Of a DNA stretch of 29,884 nucleotides, positions 2,445-12,186 are shown piece after piece (position 1 is the stretch's first letter; each line of letters starts with the position of its first letter). Origin of the DNA: a virus; the IMG/VR virus record IMGVR_UViG_3300010885_025275, positions 1 through 29,884 of that record. One strand, 5' to 3'. The notes under the pieces are model-generated. The model ran no database searches, was not told the DNA's origin, and saw only the letters and a list, made by a program, of their open reading frames with translations. The position numbers and the translations under genes are program-made.

Positions 2445-2857
2445 TTCATTTTACAGTGCCAGGGGAACCAGTTGGAAAAGGTCGTGTTGCGGATATGGTG
2501 CGAAATGGAATCACAATGAAGGTCACACCAAAGAAAACACGCGATTATGAATCTATGGTTGCTCAATTAGCTAAAATTGAAATGGTAGGTTTGCCGTTAC
2601 TTGAAGGGCCAATCATTATGAGAATCTACGCGCATTATGGAATTGGGGCATCCTGGAGTAAAACAAAGAAAGAAGATGCCATCACCAGTAAAACAAGACC
2701 AACTAAAAAACCTGATCTATCCAATGTGATTAAAGCTATTGAAGATGCGTGCAATGGAATTGTTTACAAAGATGATTCTGCCATTGTGCATTTGATTGCG
2801 ACAAAGGCTTGGAGCAATGAACCAAGGGTTGAAGTGCAAATTGAGGTAATTGTATGA
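2441..2857 (+). CDS. rusA: RusA-family Holliday junction resolvase
   Basis: 138 aa from the ATG at 2441, which overlaps the preceding stop and has GAGG at 2427-2430; a TTG nine bases earlier is less likely. RusA hallmarks are clear: N-terminal FTVPGEPVGKGR (residues 4-15), then KPDLSNVIKAIEDACNG (90-106) and VYKDDSAIV, giving the acidic set Asp92, Asp102 and Asp111/112 that binds the metal ions. It acts as a dimer cutting four-way DNA junctions, resolving recombination or replication intermediates and branched DNA before packaging. Length (RusA of E. coli is 120 aa) and position beside replication genes fit. The last four bases overlap the methyltransferase start. Confidence 0.88.
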   Translation: MIHFTVPGEPVGKGRVADMVRNGITMKVTPKKTRDYESMVAQLAKIEMVGLPLLEGPIIMRIYAHYGIGASWSKTKKEDAITSKTRPTKKPDLSNVIKAIEDACNGIVYKDDSAIVHLIATKAWSNEPRVEVQIEVIV

Positions 2858-4149
2858 ATCAACTAGAAATTCAGTATCGCAGCATTGATGACTTGATCCC
2901 TTATGCGAAGAACAGCAGAACCCACTCTGCGGATCAGGTGAATCAAATTGCAGCATCTATTAAAGAGTTTGGTTTTACTAATCCTATATTGTTAGACAAG
3001 GAAGGCGGCATTATTGCTGGACACGGACGAGTTCAAGCAGCGCGTAAGTTAAAACTTACAGAAGTGCCAACCATTACGTTGGGCAACCTTACTGATGCAC
3101 AACGGCGAGCCTATGTTATTGCAGATAACAAACTGGCTTTGAATGCGGGATGGGATGAGGAAATGCTTGCCATCGAAATTGAACAGTTAATGAGTGAGGA
3201 TTACAACCTTGATTTGTTAGGTTTCAGCAAAGAAGAACTAGCAAATATTATGGGCACACCCATAGTAGAAGGTTTAACTGACGAAGATGCGGTGCCAGAA
3301 GTGCCTGATGAACCTATCACCGTGTTGGGCGATATATGGGTATTGGGAAAGCATCGATTGATGTGCGGGGATAGTACGAGCATAGATGCTGTAGATAAAT
3401 TAATGCAAAAGGATAAAGCGTCCTTAGTTGTTACCGATCCACCATGGAATGTGGCTTATGGAACAAATCTTGCAAATAATGCACAAGGTAATAAAAAACG
3501 TGAAATATTGAACGACAACTTTGAAACTGATGAGCAATGGGATGCATTCTTGATCGGAGTGATGAGTTGCATCGTTAGCGTGACTTTGCCTGGATGCCCA
3601 ATTTATTGCGTTATGGGCGCATCTGAATGGCCAGCAATAGACAAAGCTCTAAGAAACGCTGGATTTCATTGGTCAAGCACGATTATTTGGGCGAAAGATA
3701 CGTTAGTACTTTCAAGAAAAGACTATCACACGCAATATGAACCTATCTGGTATGGATGGAAAAGTGATGGCGCAAGAATATGGACTGTCAAAGATCGCAA
3801 ACAGTCCGATTTATGGGAATGTAAAAGGCCAAAACGCTCTGAATTACATCCAACAACTAAACCGGTTGAACTTATTGAACGCGCCATTTTAAATTCCTCA
3901 AACGAAAATGTGTTTGTCTTTGAGCCATTTGGCGGTTCCGGAAGCACTTTGATCGCATGTGAAAAGACAACAAGATTTAACAGATCAATGGAGCTTGACC
4001 CAAAATATTGCGATGTTATTGTGAAAAGATGGCAAGAATTCACGGGAAAACAAGCGGTTTTAGATAATGATGGGCGCACATTTGACGATATATCTAGCGA
4101 ACGAAAAGTGGCTATTATTCCGACTCCCATAATAGAATCAAAGGAATAA
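2854..4149 (+). CDS. ParB-like nuclease domain fused to a beta-class DNA methyltransferase
   Basis: 431 aa, ATG at 2854 overlapping the rusA stop. Residues ~1-110 are a ParB/sulfiredoxin-like domain: IxPYAKNSRTHS, QIAASIKEFGFTNPILLD, then GGIIAGHGR with the GHGR box at 56-59. Residues ~165-400 are an amino-methyltransferase with DPPW at 195-198 (motif IV) before FGGSGST at 359-365 (motif I, S-adenosylmethionine binding), plus HPTTKP just before it. That order is the beta class, which methylates the exocyclic amine of adenine or cytosine (N6-A or N4-C). Such fusions are common next to phage terminase genes and likely protect phage DNA from host restriction or mark it for packaging. Target site cannot be read. 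Confidence 0.87.
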   Translation: MNQLEIQYRSIDDLIPYAKNSRTHSADQVNQIAASIKEFGFTNPILLDKEGGIIAGHGRVQAARKLKLTEVPTITLGNLTDAQRRAYVIADNKLALNAGWDEEMLAIEIEQLMSEDYNLDLLGFSKEELANIMGTPIVEGLTDEDAVPEVPDEPITVLGDIWVLGKHRLMCGDSTSIDAVDKLMQKDKASLVVTDPPWNVAYGTNLANNAQGNKKREILNDNFETDEQWDAFLIGVMSCIVSVTLPGCPIYCVMGASEWPAIDKALRNAGFHWSSTIIWAKDTLVLSRKDYHTQYEPIWYGWKSDGARIWTVKDRKQSDLWECKRPKRSELHPTTKPVELIERAILNSSNENVFVFEPFGGSGSTLIACEKTTRFNRSMELDPKYCDVIVKRWQEFTGKQAVLDNDGRTFDDISSERKVAIIPTPIIESKE

Positions 4150-5842: not shown

Positions 5843-7261
5843 ATGAGCACGATTTCAGTCAACGGCACTACTCTCAACAATCAACTGCAAGCACTTCTTG
5901 AAGCCGATTCGATTGATTGGGGTACTAATGCAGGCTATCAATTAGCCAAAGACATTTTCTTGTATCACCCATTGGGTTTTCGGATCGCCGCAGGGCCGGT
6001 CAAACTTGCCATGTCGCGCCCGCGGGAGTTGGTCATCTCCACTGCCCGCGAAAAGATTGGGCCAGAAATGATGCTAACCGAAGCATTTGAGAAAGAATGG
6101 CACGATATTAAAGCCGATGAACATATCTTTGCCACGATGACCCAAGCGCGCGTTTATGGCGTTTCAGCAATGGTATGGGGTGCGCGTGGTCATCCAACTG
6201 ATAAGCCAATCGATCCCTGGATGTATCCAAACATTGATATGTTCATCCACACTTTTGATGCCTTAAATCTTGCAGGCTCAATGGTATTAAACCAAAACCC
6301 CAATGCAATTGATTTTCAGGGCAAAGCCGATGGCATTACGGGTGCTGGTCAGCCCTATGCGCGTGGTAACAGCTTGGTTGTATTAAATGAATTCCCAATT
6401 TATTTAGCCTTTAACTCTGCCGGCTATGGATTTAATGGGCGCTCAGTGTATCAACGTGGAATTTACCCATTGCGCTCCTATCTGCTTGTGATGCAGACCG
6501 ATGCAATGGTGGCGCGTAAAGCGGGATTGATTGTTGCCAAGATTAAACAAGCGGGTTCAATTGTTAGCAATATGATGGCAAAGGCCACCGGCTACAAACG
6601 CTCGATTTTGCAGCAGGGTGGTACTGAAAACGTGTTATCAATTGATCTGGATGAAGAAATTGCTGCTATTGATCTCAATAACGTCAACCAGGCATTGAGT
6701 GCTAGCCGCAAGAATATATTGGAAGATATTGCCGCCGCAGTAGATATGCCAGCGCGATACCTAACACAAGAAACCTACTCCACTGGCCTTGCTGATGGCA
6801 CGCAAGATGCAGCAGATTTAATGCGTTATATCAGTGACATACGGCAACAAATGGAACCACTTTATGATGAACTGACAAGGATATGTCAGCATCGCGCATG
6901 GAGTGAAGAGTTTTTTGAGGCAGTGCGTGCCGCATACCCTGATGAATATCGAGGCATGACCTATAAGCAGGCATTTTATAGTTGGACTGAAGGCTGCAAG
7001 TTTGAATGGCCTGATCTGAATGAAGAGCCAGAAAGCCAAAAAGCCAAGGCTGATGAAATTAAACTCAAAGGTTTAACTGAAATGCTTCGCACGATGTTGC
7101 CAGCCGTTGACCCACAAAACCGTGCGCGTGTATTGGAATGGGCGCAAGGCAATTTGAACCAGATGGAAAGTATGTTTAGCCAAGAATTGATCTTAGATAT
7201 TGAAGAAATTGCCAATTACGAGCCACCCGCCCCATTGGAAGAACCCAAAGCGCGGGATTAA
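5843..7261 (+). CDS. Portal protein (DUF1073 type)
   Basis: 472 aa, ATG at 5843 after AAGGG (5832-5836). The N-terminal part (AKDIFLYHPLGFRIAAGPVKLAMSRP), the central RKAGLIVAKIKQAG stem region, and IAAAVDMPARYLTQETYSTG with the following GLADGTQDAADLMRYI are typical of DUF1073-type portals. Twelve copies would form the ring at the packaging vertex through which terminase threads DNA and to which the neck binds. Position directly after terL and before the morphogenesis protein is the standard head order. Databases may label this family as anti-CBASS Acb1-like; nothing here supports nuclease activity, and length and context fit a portal. The C-terminus is acidic and proline-rich. Confidence 0.88.
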   Translation: MSTISVNGTTLNNQLQALLEADSIDWGTNAGYQLAKDIFLYHPLGFRIAAGPVKLAMSRPRELVISTAREKIGPEMMLTEAFEKEWHDIKADEHIFATMTQARVYGVSAMVWGARGHPTDKPIDPWMYPNIDMFIHTFDALNLAGSMVLNQNPNAIDFQGKADGITGAGQPYARGNSLVVLNEFPIYLAFNSAGYGFNGRSVYQRGIYPLRSYLLVMQTDAMVARKAGLIVAKIKQAGSIVSNMMAKATGYKRSILQQGGTENVLSIDLDEEIAAIDLNNVNQALSASRKNILEDIAAAVDMPARYLTQETYSTGLADGTQDAADLMRYISDIRQQMEPLYDELTRICQHRAWSEEFFEAVRAAYPDEYRGMTYKQAFYSWTEGCKFEWPDLNEEPESQKAKADEIKLKGLTEMLRTMLPAVDPQNRARVLEWAQGNLNQMESMFSQELILDIEEIANYEPPAPLEEPKARD

Positions 7262-7264
7262 CAC

Positions 7265-8083
7265 ATGGCAAAGCGCAAAAGCTATTTTGAATTATTGACC
7301 GAAGCGGTTAATCATTTCATTGATAACGGCTACACATCTCAGGCTGAATTAAAGAAGTGGATCAAAATACTCAAGCAATCCGCTGAATTAACGCTTGGCA
7401 ATCCTACCAAAACCGAACTGGATGTACGCCGAGCATTAACAACAACATTTAACAATCTAATCTCTAAGAGTGGCATTGCAAGATACCATCAAGGGATTAG
7501 CGTGTTTACTGTGAACAACCTTAAACCCGCATTACGCAGGGAATTAGATAAACGCATATTAGCCAGCGTCAATCTTATTAAACTTAACCGCGAAGAAACA
7601 ATTAGCACAACACTGCGCCGGTTTGAAGGCTGGGCTACGTCCATTCCTATGGGTGGAAGTAATGCGATTGACCGTGTTGCAGAAAAACAAAACATTCGTA
7701 AGCCATTGGCGCAAATGGATTTTAAAGAAAAGCGTGTCACCATTGACCAAACGCTTAAATTAAACGCATCCATAAACAATGTTATTGCCCAATCAGGTGG
7801 TGCGATTGCGGCAAAATGGCACAGTAATTGGCGTCAATCAGGCTACGATTACCGCGAAGATCACAAAGAGCGCGATGAGCACATTTATTTAATGCGTGAT
7901 TCATGGGCTAAAGAAAAAGGATTAGTTAAACCTGGGCCTGATGGTTACTTGGATGACATAACCAAGCCAGGGGAAGAAGTTTATTGCAGGTGTACAGCAG
8001 TTTATATTTACAGCCCATTTAACCTGCCCTCAGAAATGTTGACCGAAAAAGGGCGAGAATACATTGCACCAAAAGACAAATAA
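7265..8083 (+). CDS. Phage head morphogenesis protein (Mu gpF / SPP1 gp7-like)
   Basis: 272 aa, ATG at 7265, three bases after the portal stop; the GGGA at 7255-7258 can serve as its ribosome binding site. The C-terminal ~100 residues hold the family signature: KWHSNWRQSGYDYREDHKERDEHI, a LVKPGPDGYLDD stretch, then PGEEVYCRCTAVYI with the CRC pair. The N-terminus is helical and charged. Members are minor head proteins that bind the portal and sit inside the capsid; a few copies help portal incorporation and DNA ejection. Position immediately after the portal gene fits. A 37-nt gap without recognisable signal separates it from the next gene. Confidence 0.83.
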   Translation: MAKRKSYFELLTEAVNHFIDNGYTSQAELKKWIKILKQSAELTLGNPTKTELDVRRALTTTFNNLISKSGIARYHQGISVFTVNNLKPALRRELDKRILASVNLIKLNREETISTTLRRFEGWATSIPMGGSNAIDRVAEKQNIRKPLAQMDFKEKRVTIDQTLKLNASINNVIAQSGGAIAAKWHSNWRQSGYDYREDHKERDEHIYLMRDSWAKEKGLVKPGPDGYLDDITKPGEEVYCRCTAVYIYSPFNLPSEMLTEKGREYIAPKDK

Positions 8084-8120: not shown

Positions 8121-10505
8121 ATGCCTACTACTAGCCCTGCACAAGAGCGTTTGATGCAAGCCGCCTGTCATACACCAGGTGGGTTTGGTGGCGTTCCTAA
8201 AAGCGTGGGCTGTGAATTTATTGGCAAAAAAGACGGCATGAAAAAAATCACCGAAGAATTGGCAGGTGTTTATGCTGAATTGTCCAAGATTAAAGAAGAT
8301 TCTGAAGCCTGGACAAAAAAAGAAGGCAAGAACAAAAACGGTGGTTTAAATGAAAAAGGCCGTGAATCTTATAACAAAGAACATGGCGCACATTTAAAAG
8401 CACCTCAGCCCGAAGGTGGTGCGCGAAAGAAATCATTCTGCGCTCGCATGAAAGGCATGAAGGCCAAACTCACTTCATCCAAAACCGCACACGATCCTGA
8501 TAGTCGCATTAATAAATCATTGCGGAAATGGAAGTGTGATGATGAATCTATGTTAGATGCCGACCCCTGCTGGGAAGGCTATGAACAGTTTGGGATGAAG
8601 GAAAAGGGCGGCAAGCAGGTTCCCAATTGCGTTAAAAGTGATTTTGAACCAGAAGGCATTACGCATCCAACACCCTACCCTACTGATCCACAAGGCGGCC
8701 CCACCACTCGCGCAGCGGGCATTATGTTTGAAGCCGAAGATGGCACAATCTTAATGTTGCGCCGAGGAAATGGCGGTGACTTTCCATTTCATTTTGCAAT
8801 TCCAGGCGGGCATTTAAACGGTACTGAAACCGCTGAAGAAGCGGCCCGCCGTGAAGTGCATGAGGAAACTGGCTTTTTATACGAAGGTGATTTGATACCC
8901 GTTCATGATAACGGGCAATTTATCGCATTCTATGCTGCTGATCCAGTTCCTAAATTCACACCCAAACTAAACTACGAATCCGATGGGTTTGTATGGACAG
9001 AACCCGATAATCTGCCGATGCCCATTCACCCTGGTGACATTGATGCATTCAAAGTTGCAGCGGCAGATACCGAATTAGATGTGGCACGATTGATTGCTGA
9101 AGATATTTTGCCTAGCCCACAGCCCTTTGCAAATATGCATTTGTTGGCTATCCGCATAACCGGCACAGGATTGGCTTACCGTTCAGCCATTGAAGAACAT
9201 GTGTGGCGTGATCCATCGTTGTATATGAACGATGAATTCCTGCAACGCTGCTATGGTTTGACCGTCATTATGGATCATCCAGATGGCAGCATATTGGATA
9301 GCAAAGAATTCAAAGATCGCGCCATCGGCTCGATTCTGTTACCCTATTTCAAAGGCTCTGATGAAGTTTGGGGCATAGCAAAGATTTACGACTCGGCTGC
9401 GATGAAAGAAATCAACGAAGGCGATATTAGTACATCGCCATCAGTGGTTTTTGATGAACGGTCAGGTAATACAAATTTGATCACTGAAAGTGGCGATCCT
9501 TTACTTATTGAAGGAAAACCATTTTTGTTGGATCATATTGCAATTGTCACAAAGGCTCGCGGTAGTAAGGGCGTTTGGGATAAGGGCGGGCCTGCAACTG
9601 GTGTACTTCTCAACAATCCTGAGGTATCTGATATGAATGAAACAACTCAGCCGAAGGCAGATGCCGCAGGCGATAAACTTGATGCAATCCTAAACGCGAT
9701 CCAGAACATTTCTGCGCGTGTAGATGCAATGGAAAAAAACCTGCCCGCTGAGCCAATGACCCACATTGCTGCTGGCAAAAAAGATGACGATTCGCGCCGC
9801 AAAGATGACGATGAAGAAATGATGGCTGCTGACAAAAAACATCGTAAAGACGATGATGAAGAAATGATGGCGGCTGATCGCAAGAAAAAGCGCAAAGATG
9901 ACGATGATGACAGAATGCGTAAAGATGACGATGAAGAGGAAGAGGAAGAGAACGGTCATAAAATGATGGCCTCCGACAAAAAGCGCAAAGATGCAGTTGG
10001 TTCCAATCCTAAGGAACACGGCCCTGCTGGTGAAATCAAGCCAGATGATGACGATTGTTATAGCGATGATGACGATGATGATCGTGCTAAGAAGGCCGAT
10101 GAAGAAGAAGCAGAAAAAGCAGATGCACAAGCAGCAGCCGATTCTGTTTATTCAGCCTTTGGTAAAGCAGCAAGCCGTCCATTGCAAGGCGAAGGCCTGA
10201 TGGCTTACCGCAAGCGCCTGTTGCGTGGTTTGCAAGCGCATTCTGATGCGTATAAACAAATTGATTTGCGAATGATTAAAGATGCTGCTTTACTGGCTTT
10301 GGCTGAAAAACAAATCTTTGCTGATGCATTGACAGCAGCGCGTAATGACAACCAAGTGGGTGCAGGCCAATTGATCGAAATGGAACAACGTGATCGTTCA
10401 GGCCGCACAATTTCAACATTTAAAGGCGATGTGAATTCTTGGCTGGAAAGTTTTACCGTTCCTGCCCAGCGTGTTGTGGCCTTTAACACCCAAAACCGTA
10501 AATAA
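8121..10505 (+). CDS. Multi-domain prohead protease: DUF6321-like + Nudix + DUF2213-type protease + acidic repeats + putative scaffold
   Basis: 794 aa, far longer than a usual prohead protease. Order: residues 1-35 SPAQERLMQAACHTPGGFGG, a short motif of phage head proteins; ~60-140 AWTKKEG...GGLNEKGRESYN...KKSFCARM...SLRKWKC, like DUF6321; ~195-330 a Nudix hydrolase fold with an intact box (Gly230, Glu236, Arg244-Glu245, Glu248-Glu249); ~338-480 a DUF2213-type serine protease with MDHPDG (384-389), DISTSPSVVF (435-444) and LLDHIAIV (469-476); ~555-660 Lys/Asp/Glu-rich repeats; ~670-794 a helical domain. The protease should cleave scaffold and itself during head maturation; the acidic and C-terminal parts likely form the scaffold. 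The Nudix substrate is unknown. The start has only a weak ribosome binding site. GAGG then ATG at 9633 suggests a nested product. Confidence 0.85.
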   Translation: MPTTSPAQERLMQAACHTPGGFGGVPKSVGCEFIGKKDGMKKITEELAGVYAELSKIKEDSEAWTKKEGKNKNGGLNEKGRESYNKEHGAHLKAPQPEGGARKKSFCARMKGMKAKLTSSKTAHDPDSRINKSLRKWKCDDESMLDADPCWEGYEQFGMKEKGGKQVPNCVKSDFEPEGITHPTPYPTDPQGGPTTRAAGIMFEAEDGTILMLRRGNGGDFPFHFAIPGGHLNGTETAEEAARREVHEETGFLYEGDLIPVHDNGQFIAFYAADPVPKFTPKLNYESDGFVWTEPDNLPMPIHPGDIDAFKVAAADTELDVARLIAEDILPSPQPFANMHLLAIRITGTGLAYRSAIEEHVWRDPSLYMNDEFLQRCYGLTVIMDHPDGSILDSKEFKDRAIGSILLPYFKGSDEVWGIAKIYDSAAMKEINEGDISTSPSVVFDERSGNTNLITESGDPLLIEGKPFLLDHIAIVTKARGSKGVWDKGGPATGVLLNNPEVSDMNETTQPKADAAGDKLDAILNAIQNISARVDAMEKNLPAEPMTHIAAGKKDDDSRRKDDDEEMMAADKKHRKDDDEEMMAADRKKKRKDDDDDRMRKDDDEEEEEENGHKMMASDKKRKDAVGSNPKEHGPAGEIKPDDDDCYSDDDDDDRAKKADEEEAEKADAQAAADSVYSAFGKAASRPLQGEGLMAYRKRLLRGLQAHSDAYKQIDLRMIKDAALLALAEKQIFADALTAARNDNQVGAGQLIEMEQRDRSGRTISTFKGDVNSWLESFTVPAQRVVAFNTQNRK
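9633..10505 (+). CDS. Putative scaffold protein nested in-frame in the protease gene (internal start)
   Basis: An in-frame ATG at 9633 (residue 505, MNETTQPKADAAGDKL) lies 8 nt after a clean GAGG at 9621-9624, right where the protease domain ends. It would give a 290-aa protein: a short helix (AILNAIQNISARVDAMEKN), acidic/basic repeats, and the helical C-terminal domain ending at the same stop. Lambda uses this arrangement for protease C and scaffold Nu3, and no separate scaffold gene is present between portal and capsid genes here. Use of this start is inferred from the ribosome binding site, the domain border and the analogy. Confidence 0.5.
   Translation: MNETTQPKADAAGDKLDAILNAIQNISARVDAMEKNLPAEPMTHIAAGKKDDDSRRKDDDEEMMAADKKHRKDDDEEMMAADRKKKRKDDDDDRMRKDDDEEEEEENGHKMMASDKKRKDAVGSNPKEHGPAGEIKPDDDDCYSDDDDDDRAKKADEEEAEKADAQAAADSVYSAFGKAASRPLQGEGLMAYRKRLLRGLQAHSDAYKQIDLRMIKDAALLALAEKQIFADALTAARNDNQVGAGQLIEMEQRDRSGRTISTFKGDVNSWLESFTVPAQRVVAFNTQNRK
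9798..9983 (+). repeat. Degenerate tandem repeat encoding RKDDDEEMMAADKK units
   Basis: The protein repeats RKDDDEEMMAADKKH (residues 560-574) and RKDDDEEMMAADRKKK (575-590), then two degenerate copies beginning RKDDDDDRM (591) and RKDDDEEEEEE (600), the last including KMMASDKK. Unit length is about 15-16 aa (45-48 nt). Alternating acidic and basic blocks suggest an unstructured, highly charged linker, as in phage scaffolds. Confidence 0.85.
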
Positions 10506-11154: not shown

Positions 11155-12186
11155 ATGAGCGCATTCGCCCCAAGTTTTATTACAGCTAACCCGCATTACA
11201 TGATGCCCGAATACATTATTCAGTATTCGCTGGCCTCTGGTGCATTCACCACTTTGGCAACTGAAAAACCCATGACCCGTTTGGGAACTGGTGATCTTTA
11301 TGTTTATGCCAAGAAAATGCAGCTAACCACCCAGGTTTCGGCTAACCAATCAACTGTGAACCAGTTGCCATCGGCTACCGTGATTCCTAACATGATTAGC
11401 ACCCCAACCTATCGTATTCAAACCCGTGCTCAGTATGACGGCTTTGATGAAACCGCAGCAGGACATTGGGGCTATTCACTTCCCCAGGCATTGCGCCTAG
11501 CAGCCCGTCAGGGTATTGCACAGCAAATGCGTAATGCACTGTTGTATGGTTTCAACAATGCAAACTCTGGTGAAGGTCTGTTGAATACCGCAGGTGCTAC
11601 CACCGTGACCTTGCCTGCTGATTCAAATGGCAACACCACCCTATCCACATGGGATTCTGGTCAACTTGCACAATTCTTCTTGAACCTGATCGGTTCATTG
11701 AAGGTTCGTACATTGCAGATTGGACAACCCTTGCGTTTGGTGTTCTTGGCTCCCCAGCGCGTAATCAGCCAATTATCTTATGGCGGTATCGTGCAGTTGA
11801 CCCAATTCCAACGTATTGGTGCAGGTGTTGAAACCGCAGCCGGTGTGATCGAAACTGTTGCACAATGGGCGGGCGGCGATGATGTGTCGTTTGCAGTGGA
11901 CGATACCTTGATTGGTCAAGGCGCAGGTGGCTCTGATGCTATTCTGTTGATTGCACCTGAAATCAAGATTCCCAAGGCTGACACTCAAATCAACACGAAC
12001 ATTTTTGCAACGCTCACGCCCAACACCACCGCAGTATCATTGATGTTGATTGACGTTGCTGCACCTACTGAAATCCCCACTCCCCTGCCTGATGCTGCGC
12101 TCACCGTGTTGTACACGATGCGTTCAACCTCTGGATGGGTATTGCGCCCTGAAGCACTGACTGTTCTATCAGCCTTCTACGCATAA
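11155..12186 (+). CDS. Major capsid protein (DUF2184-type, HK97 fold expected)
   Basis: 343 aa, ATG at 11155 after AAAGGA (11139-11144). The pattern fits DUF2184-type capsid proteins: YIIQYSLASGAFTTLATEKP early, a long helix with LRLAARQGIAQQMRNALLYG then FNNANSGEGLLNTAG, and late FAVDDTLIGQGAGGSDAILLIAPEI, which corresponds to the P-domain and A-loop region. Codon choice looks more uniform than in neighbours, as expected for a highly expressed gene. Hundreds of copies build the icosahedral shell with the protease and scaffold encoded upstream. A strong terminator follows directly. Family assignment is by pattern recall and context. Confidence 0.83.
   Translation: MSAFAPSFITANPHYMMPEYIIQYSLASGAFTTLATEKPMTRLGTGDLYVYAKKMQLTTQVSANQSTVNQLPSATVIPNMISTPTYRIQTRAQYDGFDETAAGHWGYSLPQALRLAARQGIAQQMRNALLYGFNNANSGEGLLNTAGATTVTLPADSNGNTTLSTWDSGQLAQFFLNLIGSLKVRTLQIGQPLRLVFLAPQRVISQLSYGGIVQLTQFQRIGAGVETAAGVIETVAQWAGGDDVSFAVDDTLIGQGAGGSDAILLIAPEIKIPKADTQINTNIFATLTPNTTAVSLMLIDVAAPTEIPTPLPDAALTVLYTMRSTSGWVLRPEALTVLSAFYA

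Follow-up and report, generated by a model that had tools for sequence, protein, structure and literature searches.

A Nudix domain fused to a phage prohead protease and scaffold: a candidate cargo position in capsid assembly

Why should a Nudix domain be embedded in the protein with which a phage assembles its capsid? The question is raised by a gene at 8121-10505 of the IMG/VR virus record IMGVR_UViG_3300010885_025275, all 29,884 nucleotides of which (29.9 kb, probably a fragment; hereafter the window) were analysed. The initial annotation had read this gene as a single frame joining a DUF6321-like domain, a Nudix domain, a protease, charged repeats and a scaffold, and had speculated that the protease might release a Nudix enzyme that enters the host with the virion and acts on signalling nucleotides. 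The architecture proved to be real. ORF calling and translation gave a 794-residue frame at exactly these positions; Pfam recognised DUF6321 (aa 69-137), NUDIX (aa 195-300) and DUF2213 (aa 360-481); and a single PHROG family, phrog_6216 (function not given), spans aa 196-790 (E=1.8e-147), thereby covering Nudix, protease and scaffold. The parts of the gene and its head-module neighbours are as follows.

5843..7261 (+): portal protein, neighbour (phrog_146, E=3.5e-35)
7265..8083 (+): MuF-like head morphogenesis protein, neighbour (phrog_324, E=1.2e-29)
8121..10505 (+): whole ORF, 794 aa, tag + DUF6321 + CWEGY module + Nudix + protease + charged repeats + scaffold (ORF, Pfam, PHROG, homologues)
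8121..8234 (+): N-terminal 'SPAQ' tag, MPTTSPAQERLMQAACHTPGGFGGVPKSVGCEFIG..., always at the extreme N-terminus
8325..8531 (+): DUF6321, aa 69-137 (Pfam PF19846, E=8e-21)
8547..8648 (+): short Cys-containing (CWEGY) module, CWEGYEQFGMKEKGGKQVPNC, conserved and position-shuffled in relatives
8703..9065 (+): Nudix domain, aa 195-315 (Pfam PF00293, E=5e-14; AF2 model; Foldseek)
8808..8876 (+): Nudix box G230-F252, GX5EX7REUXEEXGU (sequence; conservation in 147 domains)
9066..9584 (+): DUF2213-type prohead protease, aa 316-488 (Pfam, alignment, structural matches)
9621..9624 (+): Shine-Dalgarno-like GAGG, 8 nt before the internal ATG (sequence)
9633..10505 (+): predicted separately translated scaffold, internal start Met505, 290 aa (statistics of SD-preceded ATGs; split genes in relatives)
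9771..10100 (+): charged K/D/E repeats, aa 551-660, of the KDDDEEMMAADKK type (sequence; fast-evolving)
10101..10502 (+): conserved C-terminal scaffold domain, aa 661-794 (alignment; separate downstream gene in locus L006)
11155..12186 (+): major capsid protein, neighbour (phrog_264 major head protein, E=9.5e-11; PF09950 sub-threshold)

The window phage encodes a tail sheath, and the protease gene lies within a myovirus head module with the order terminase, portal, MuF-like gene, the gene at 8121-10505, one unknown protein and the major capsid gene. Upstream of the packaging genes we noted a ParB-N and DNA methylase fusion (2854-4149), a RusA resolvase (2432-2857) and a DUF1376 protein (708-1556). 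ORFs that are near-identical or about 90% identical to the 794-residue protein are encoded on four further contigs (L002-L005), which come from independent metagenomes, and thus the fusion is no assembly artefact, an explanation that is also ruled out by the recurrence of the same fusion in isolates and prophages.

The Nudix box reported at Gly230 to Phe252 is indeed intact, with GGHLNGTETAEEAARREVHEETGF fitting the pattern GX5EX7REUXEEXGU exactly. Beyond this box (aa 230-252), membership in the Nudix superfamily is indicated by a PF00293 match above the cut-off and by an AlphaFold2 model of the Nudix and protease regions (mean pLDDT 88.7), the fold of which matches Nudix structures; the best 50 Foldseek matches listed against the PDB are all Nudix proteins. 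A loss of catalytic glutamates in relatives, which the initial annotation had named as evidence against its proposal, is not observed. G230, E245 and E248 are present in every one of 147 non-redundant Nudix domains, R244 and E249 are each retained in 146, E236 in 142, and the downstream acidic position E286 is a glutamate in 145 and an aspartate in the remaining two, which rules out a degenerate Nudix domain. The sole domain of the 147 with a lysine at E249 is that of Erwinia sp. OLFS4 (L107; box REVQEK). Comparison of the window with its relative L003 gave a pN of 0.040 for the Nudix domain, with synonymous sites saturated, and of 0.069 for the protease. To judge from these substitution patterns the domain is under purifying selection, and its residues make it look active.

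The class to which this Nudix domain belongs is less sharply marked. It scored 20.2 bits with the bacterial NudE model (NF008736; cut-off 169) and, higher, 29.5 bits with the MutT model (cut-off 97.9), so that membership of this bacterial NudE group or of MutT was rejected on the curated cut-offs. Such Nudix domains are classed with T4 NudE by Iyer et al. 2022 (PMC9503650), whereas the window domain scores better with MutT than with NudE. The nearest proteins in PDB profile and Foldseek comparisons are MutT-like enzymes, plant NUDX1, NudI/NudG, BdRppH and Ap4A/Ap6A hydrolases, with identities all near 20-30%, and the domain is closer to enzymes of the MutT/NUDX1/NudI type than to any known NAD/ADP-ribose subfamily. 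The ADP-ribosyltransferase neighbours described below make an NAD/ADP-ribose substrate attractive, but the PBECR1 and topoisomerase neighbours do not. PADLOC returned no more than a weak generic Nudix match to PDC-S07.

The same fusion was found in other phages. Among 162 non-redundant protease ORFs, 128 carry a fused Nudix domain and 34 do not, with Pfam likewise counting 128; because these ORFs were collected through their similarity to three queries, the fraction is no population estimate. The expectation that Nudix enzymes are usually encoded separately hence fails for this family, though separate neighbouring genes exist too. Scans of viral contigs recovered at least 558-595 relatives per scan, numbers that exclude chance as an explanation, and 21 prophage or metagenome-assembled genome (MAG) loci also contain relatives. 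The 34 proteases lacking Nudix could be taken to mean that the fusion has no function under selection and is either a decaying remnant or an incidental chimera at the level of annotation. This has a negligible claim on the data: the 128 fused proteins come from independent phages and prophages, pN is low, the catalytic residues are invariant, and the observed conservation already refutes it.

Some of the fused proteins belong to isolated phages, among them the Pantoea Certevirus PdC23, Klebsiella phages Chronis and RothC/D, the Yersinia vB_YenM phages and Shewanella phage QDWS. The proteins of PdC23, Chronis, vB_YenM_30.14 and QDWS resemble that of the window in the order of Nudix, DUF2213 protease, charged region and scaffold, and their gene neighbourhoods match that of the window. 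They differ in lacking the DUF6321 and Cys-rich modules, which are extra in the window; QDWS has only the N-terminal tag before the Nudix domain, whereas PdC23, Chronis and vB_YenM_30.14 begin at the Nudix domain itself.

The Nudix subfamily is not confined to the protease. When the window Nudix and the portal Nudix of Burkholderia phage Bcep781 were used as queries against 50,697 phage records, they drew in almost solely head-module Nudix domains. The portals of Bcep781, Bcep43, Bcep1 and BcepNY3 end in a domain of the same subfamily. In Bcep781 the portal gp17 shares 40% identity with the window domain and has an intact box, and this phage's own head maturation protease gp14, unlike the window protease, has no Nudix. 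In phage Bm1 the Nudix has a gene of its own that lies between MuF and the protease. Separate Nudix genes stand immediately upstream of the protease in L230, L241 and L258, and others lie nearby in L259, L179 and L212, the last of which (316-1656) couples a Nudix to topoisomerase IB two genes upstream of the prohead protease. In Rac-SA53, pPE4 and p727A3-47K, which are without a fused Nudix, the protein begins where the protease module begins. On the protease tree the fused state requires about 14 changes, at least 6 of which are forced by well-supported branches. Given the 34 of 162 proteases without a fused Nudix and the standalone versions, neither the fusion nor the Nudix domain is essential.

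In close pairs (protease distance up to 12%) the median amino-acid distance is 0.18 for the Nudix domain against 0.076 for the protease, that is, about 2.4 times faster divergence. In 66 of 312 such pairs the Nudix distance is more than threefold the protease distance, and in some of them the synonymous distance is raised too, which suggests that replacement by recombination is responsible in part. Sequence divergence of the Nudix domain thus outpaces that of the protease, apparently in part through swapping. These data bear on a reading in which the Nudix fold would have a non-enzymatic role in head assembly, docking the protease at the portal or MuF, or holding it inactive until maturation. 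The domain directly precedes the protease, its subfamily also occurs on a portal, and T4 gp21 is kept inactive by its N-terminal region (PMC9958956). Nevertheless, the metal-binding glutamates are conserved in essentially all of the 147 domains despite the faster divergence, many relatives without Nudix keep the same protease, and the Nudix is a separate gene in several; we consider such a role improbable.

The region that follows the Nudix domain matches DUF2213 (PF09979; E=6e-6, 26.7 bits against a cut-off of 22). Its alignment revealed invariant H386, S437/T438/S439/P440 and D471 and a near-invariant H472, which make up HP, STSP and DH motifs, and viral structural matches to the AF2 model are to DUF2213 and prohead serine proteases. 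The Pfam match, the His/Ser motifs and the location in a head module between MuF and the major capsid gene place it among the DUF2213 prohead proteases, with proteolysis as its predicted activity. No cleavage site is recognisable in the sequence between the Nudix domain and the protease.

Downstream of the protease, nine relatives all share Met505 (ATG at 9633), and in the window a GAGG stands eight bases upstream of it. In 53 of 56 relatives an ATG preceded by a Shine-Dalgarno (SD)-like motif comes after the protease, as against 82 of 965 other in-frame ATGs, and in a larger set this holds for 137 of 160 as against 16.7% of control windows. In L080-L095 a one-base shift makes two overlapping genes at the point of the internal start, and L006 has a scaffold gene of its own that begins just downstream of this junction. 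In phage lambda, the protease C and the scaffold Nu3 share one frame, and an internal start gives free scaffold. The window protein likewise has both parts in a single frame, and an internal in-frame start with a ribosome-binding site precedes the scaffold part, although here the start is deduced from sequence; lambda C belongs to a different protease family and has no counterpart to the N-terminal Nudix or other cargo. Given the conserved SD-preceded ATG, translation very probably starts a second time at 9633. The scaffold is therefore likely to be made separately as well, and the window phage would probably produce a free scaffold in the manner of lambda C/Nu3. The counted SD motifs preceded the full-length starts of tagged proteins in only 6 of 50 cases, but this count covered few such motifs and many full-length starts have uncounted AGGG- or AGGT-like sequences, so that a claim of weaker full-length starts is soft.

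The N-terminal end of the protein varies in its domain content. Pfam searches recovered an ADP-ribosyltransferase (PF03496, E down to 3e-21) ahead of Nudix and protease in L140, L157 and L260, a PBECR1 nuclease domain that precedes Nudix and protease in the same frame (L237:2418-4853), and a rubrerythrin/EncFtn-like (ferritin-like) domain that replaces the Nudix and is fused N-terminal to the DUF2213 protease (L224:3204-4331). In the three ADP-ribosyltransferase proteins, each a single polypeptide, the LYRG, STS and E-x-E motifs are visible. The ferritin-like fusion is reminiscent of ferritin cargo in encapsulins, which have the HK97 capsid fold. Of 146 N-termini, Pfam recognised DUF6321 in 22, and relatives differ in whether it comes before or after the CWEGY module; its AF2 model is of low confidence (pLDDT 64). 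Synechococcus phage S-CAM4 has a standalone protein with the tag region and DUF6321 near the terminase small subunit gene (L122:3962-4387), and DUF6321, a domain to which no function has been assigned, is found widely among cyanophages. Among non-redundant proteins, 48 of the 128 with a fused Nudix and 13 of the 34 without one have the 'SPAQ' tag, and in L258 it is on the standalone Nudix and absent from the protease. The exchanged domains, the shuffled order and the distribution of the tag suggest a modular cargo position. Judged from domain content, the N-terminus would be a slot occupied in relatives by ADP-ribosyltransferase and Nudix, by PBECR1 RNase and Nudix, by a ferritin-like domain or by no cargo at all.

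ADP-ribosyltransferase and PBECR1 RNase domain types have already been proposed as virion-delivered effectors (PMC5512222, PMC9503650). The virion-packaged NAD/ADP-ribose-network proteins of Iyer et al. 2022 (PMC9503650) and the polyvalent proteins of 2017 (PMC5512222) include, as in the window, Nudix domains on a capsid-processing peptidase, portal or MuF, and for such fusions packaging and injection were predicted in 2022 (PMC9503650). The idea of the initial annotation is therefore not new, even though its observation of a Nudix with catalytic residues in a capsid assembly protein holds. The consulted text of these two papers (PMC9503650, PMC5512222) makes no mention of a nested scaffold start, shuffled tags, or replacement by ADP-ribosyltransferase, PBECR1 or ferritin-like domains. 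What the present analysis adds is a test of residue conservation, a scaffold start nested in the frame and an N-terminal slot with exchangeable cargo.

A precedent is offered by the T4 head, which holds about 55 copies of protease, about 580 of scaffold and about 40 of the ADP-ribosyltransferase Alt, trimmed by gp21 (PMC9958956). Alt and the T4 internal proteins are packed into the core of the head; the prohead protease trims them, and injection follows (PMC9958956). The T4 cargo consists of separate proteins with a targeting sequence, whereas the window cargo lies within the protease-scaffold chain. The literature searched yielded no virion proteomics for Nudix-bearing heads of any relative.

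The Nudix is encoded in, or fused to, head-morphogenesis genes, as expected of a virion-packaged effector. It could instead be an enzyme that acts late in the infected cell, cleaning the nucleotide pool or degrading a host signal, and that is fused for co-expression alone and discarded or degraded with the scaffold, undelivered. Catalytic conservation needs no delivery, separate Nudix genes in the same slot would serve equally, and the closest solved enzymes in sequence and fold include MutT-like house-cleaning enzymes. Against this, a low-copy assembly protein, or the portal in Bcep781, would be an odd carrier for a soluble late enzyme, and the ADP-ribosyltransferase and PBECR1 domains in the slot point to delivered effectors. 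A purely late function is thus unlikely, if less so than a structural one. Packaging and delivery are the best reading because the same Nudix subfamily occurs on Bcep781-type portals and because ADP-ribosyltransferase or PBECR1 domains occupy the same slot.

We accordingly favour, at a probability of roughly one half, the loading of an active Nudix into the procapsid via the protease-scaffold protein and its delivery at infection; that the scaffold is also made on its own and co-assembles is inferred, as are cleavage, persistence in the particle and delivery, the last three being the key steps. The prohead protease would have an N-terminal cargo slot, filled in the window by an active-looking Nudix after DUF6321, and a C-terminal scaffold domain. 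A second, stronger start at 9633 would supply free scaffold in excess, like Nu3 inside gene C of lambda, so that a minority of scaffold chains would carry protease and cargo. The scaffold domain would co-assemble inside the procapsid and bring in protease and Nudix; at maturation the protease would cut itself and the scaffold, leaving the Nudix in the head, from where it would enter the host with the DNA. There it would hydrolyse a nucleoside-diphosphate-linked substrate, be it a signal nucleotide, an NAD/ADP-ribose compound, an RNA 5' end or a damaged NTP. More tentatively, and with less confidence than delivery of the Nudix itself, the protein could be a general cargo loader in a large phage group, in which the low-copy protease brings exchangeable N-terminal effectors into the procapsid, the internal start sets the ratio of cargo to scaffold and maturation proteolysis frees the cargo. 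The Nudix would then be the default, with ADP-ribosyltransferase, PBECR RNase, ferritin-like and DUF6321 domains as alternatives or additions, and the 'SPAQ' tag might be a packaging or trimming signal.

If this is true, one gene both builds the head and arms it, with the dose set by the internal start, and head maturation would be linked with early counter-defence, two topics that are studied apart. It would also represent a natural route for loading foreign enzymes into phage heads. The survey yields a large set of head-associated Nudix domains. Given that culturable Klebsiella, Yersinia, Pantoea and Shewanella phages have the fusion and that Rac-SA53-type phages are without it, delivery and function are directly testable.

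The annotation of the isolated relatives varies between NUDIX hydrolase, hypothetical protein and glycosyl transferase. The label 'glycosyl transferase' on the Yersinia homologues (L011) looks like a misannotation, as does the label 'TolA protein', with the note 'nudix', on the Nudix-less protease-scaffold of Rac-SA53 (L012). The genomes of Shewanella phage vB_Sb_QDWS (OK094664.1) and Hujiaoplasma (Tenericutes) phage zrk29-1 (OP650936.1) have an equal length of 47,902 and equal match scores, so one of the two host assignments may be wrong. In Kluyvera genomosp. 3 YDC799 (L113:4989-5905) the Nudix-protease frame is split into two ORFs, probably in a decaying prophage.
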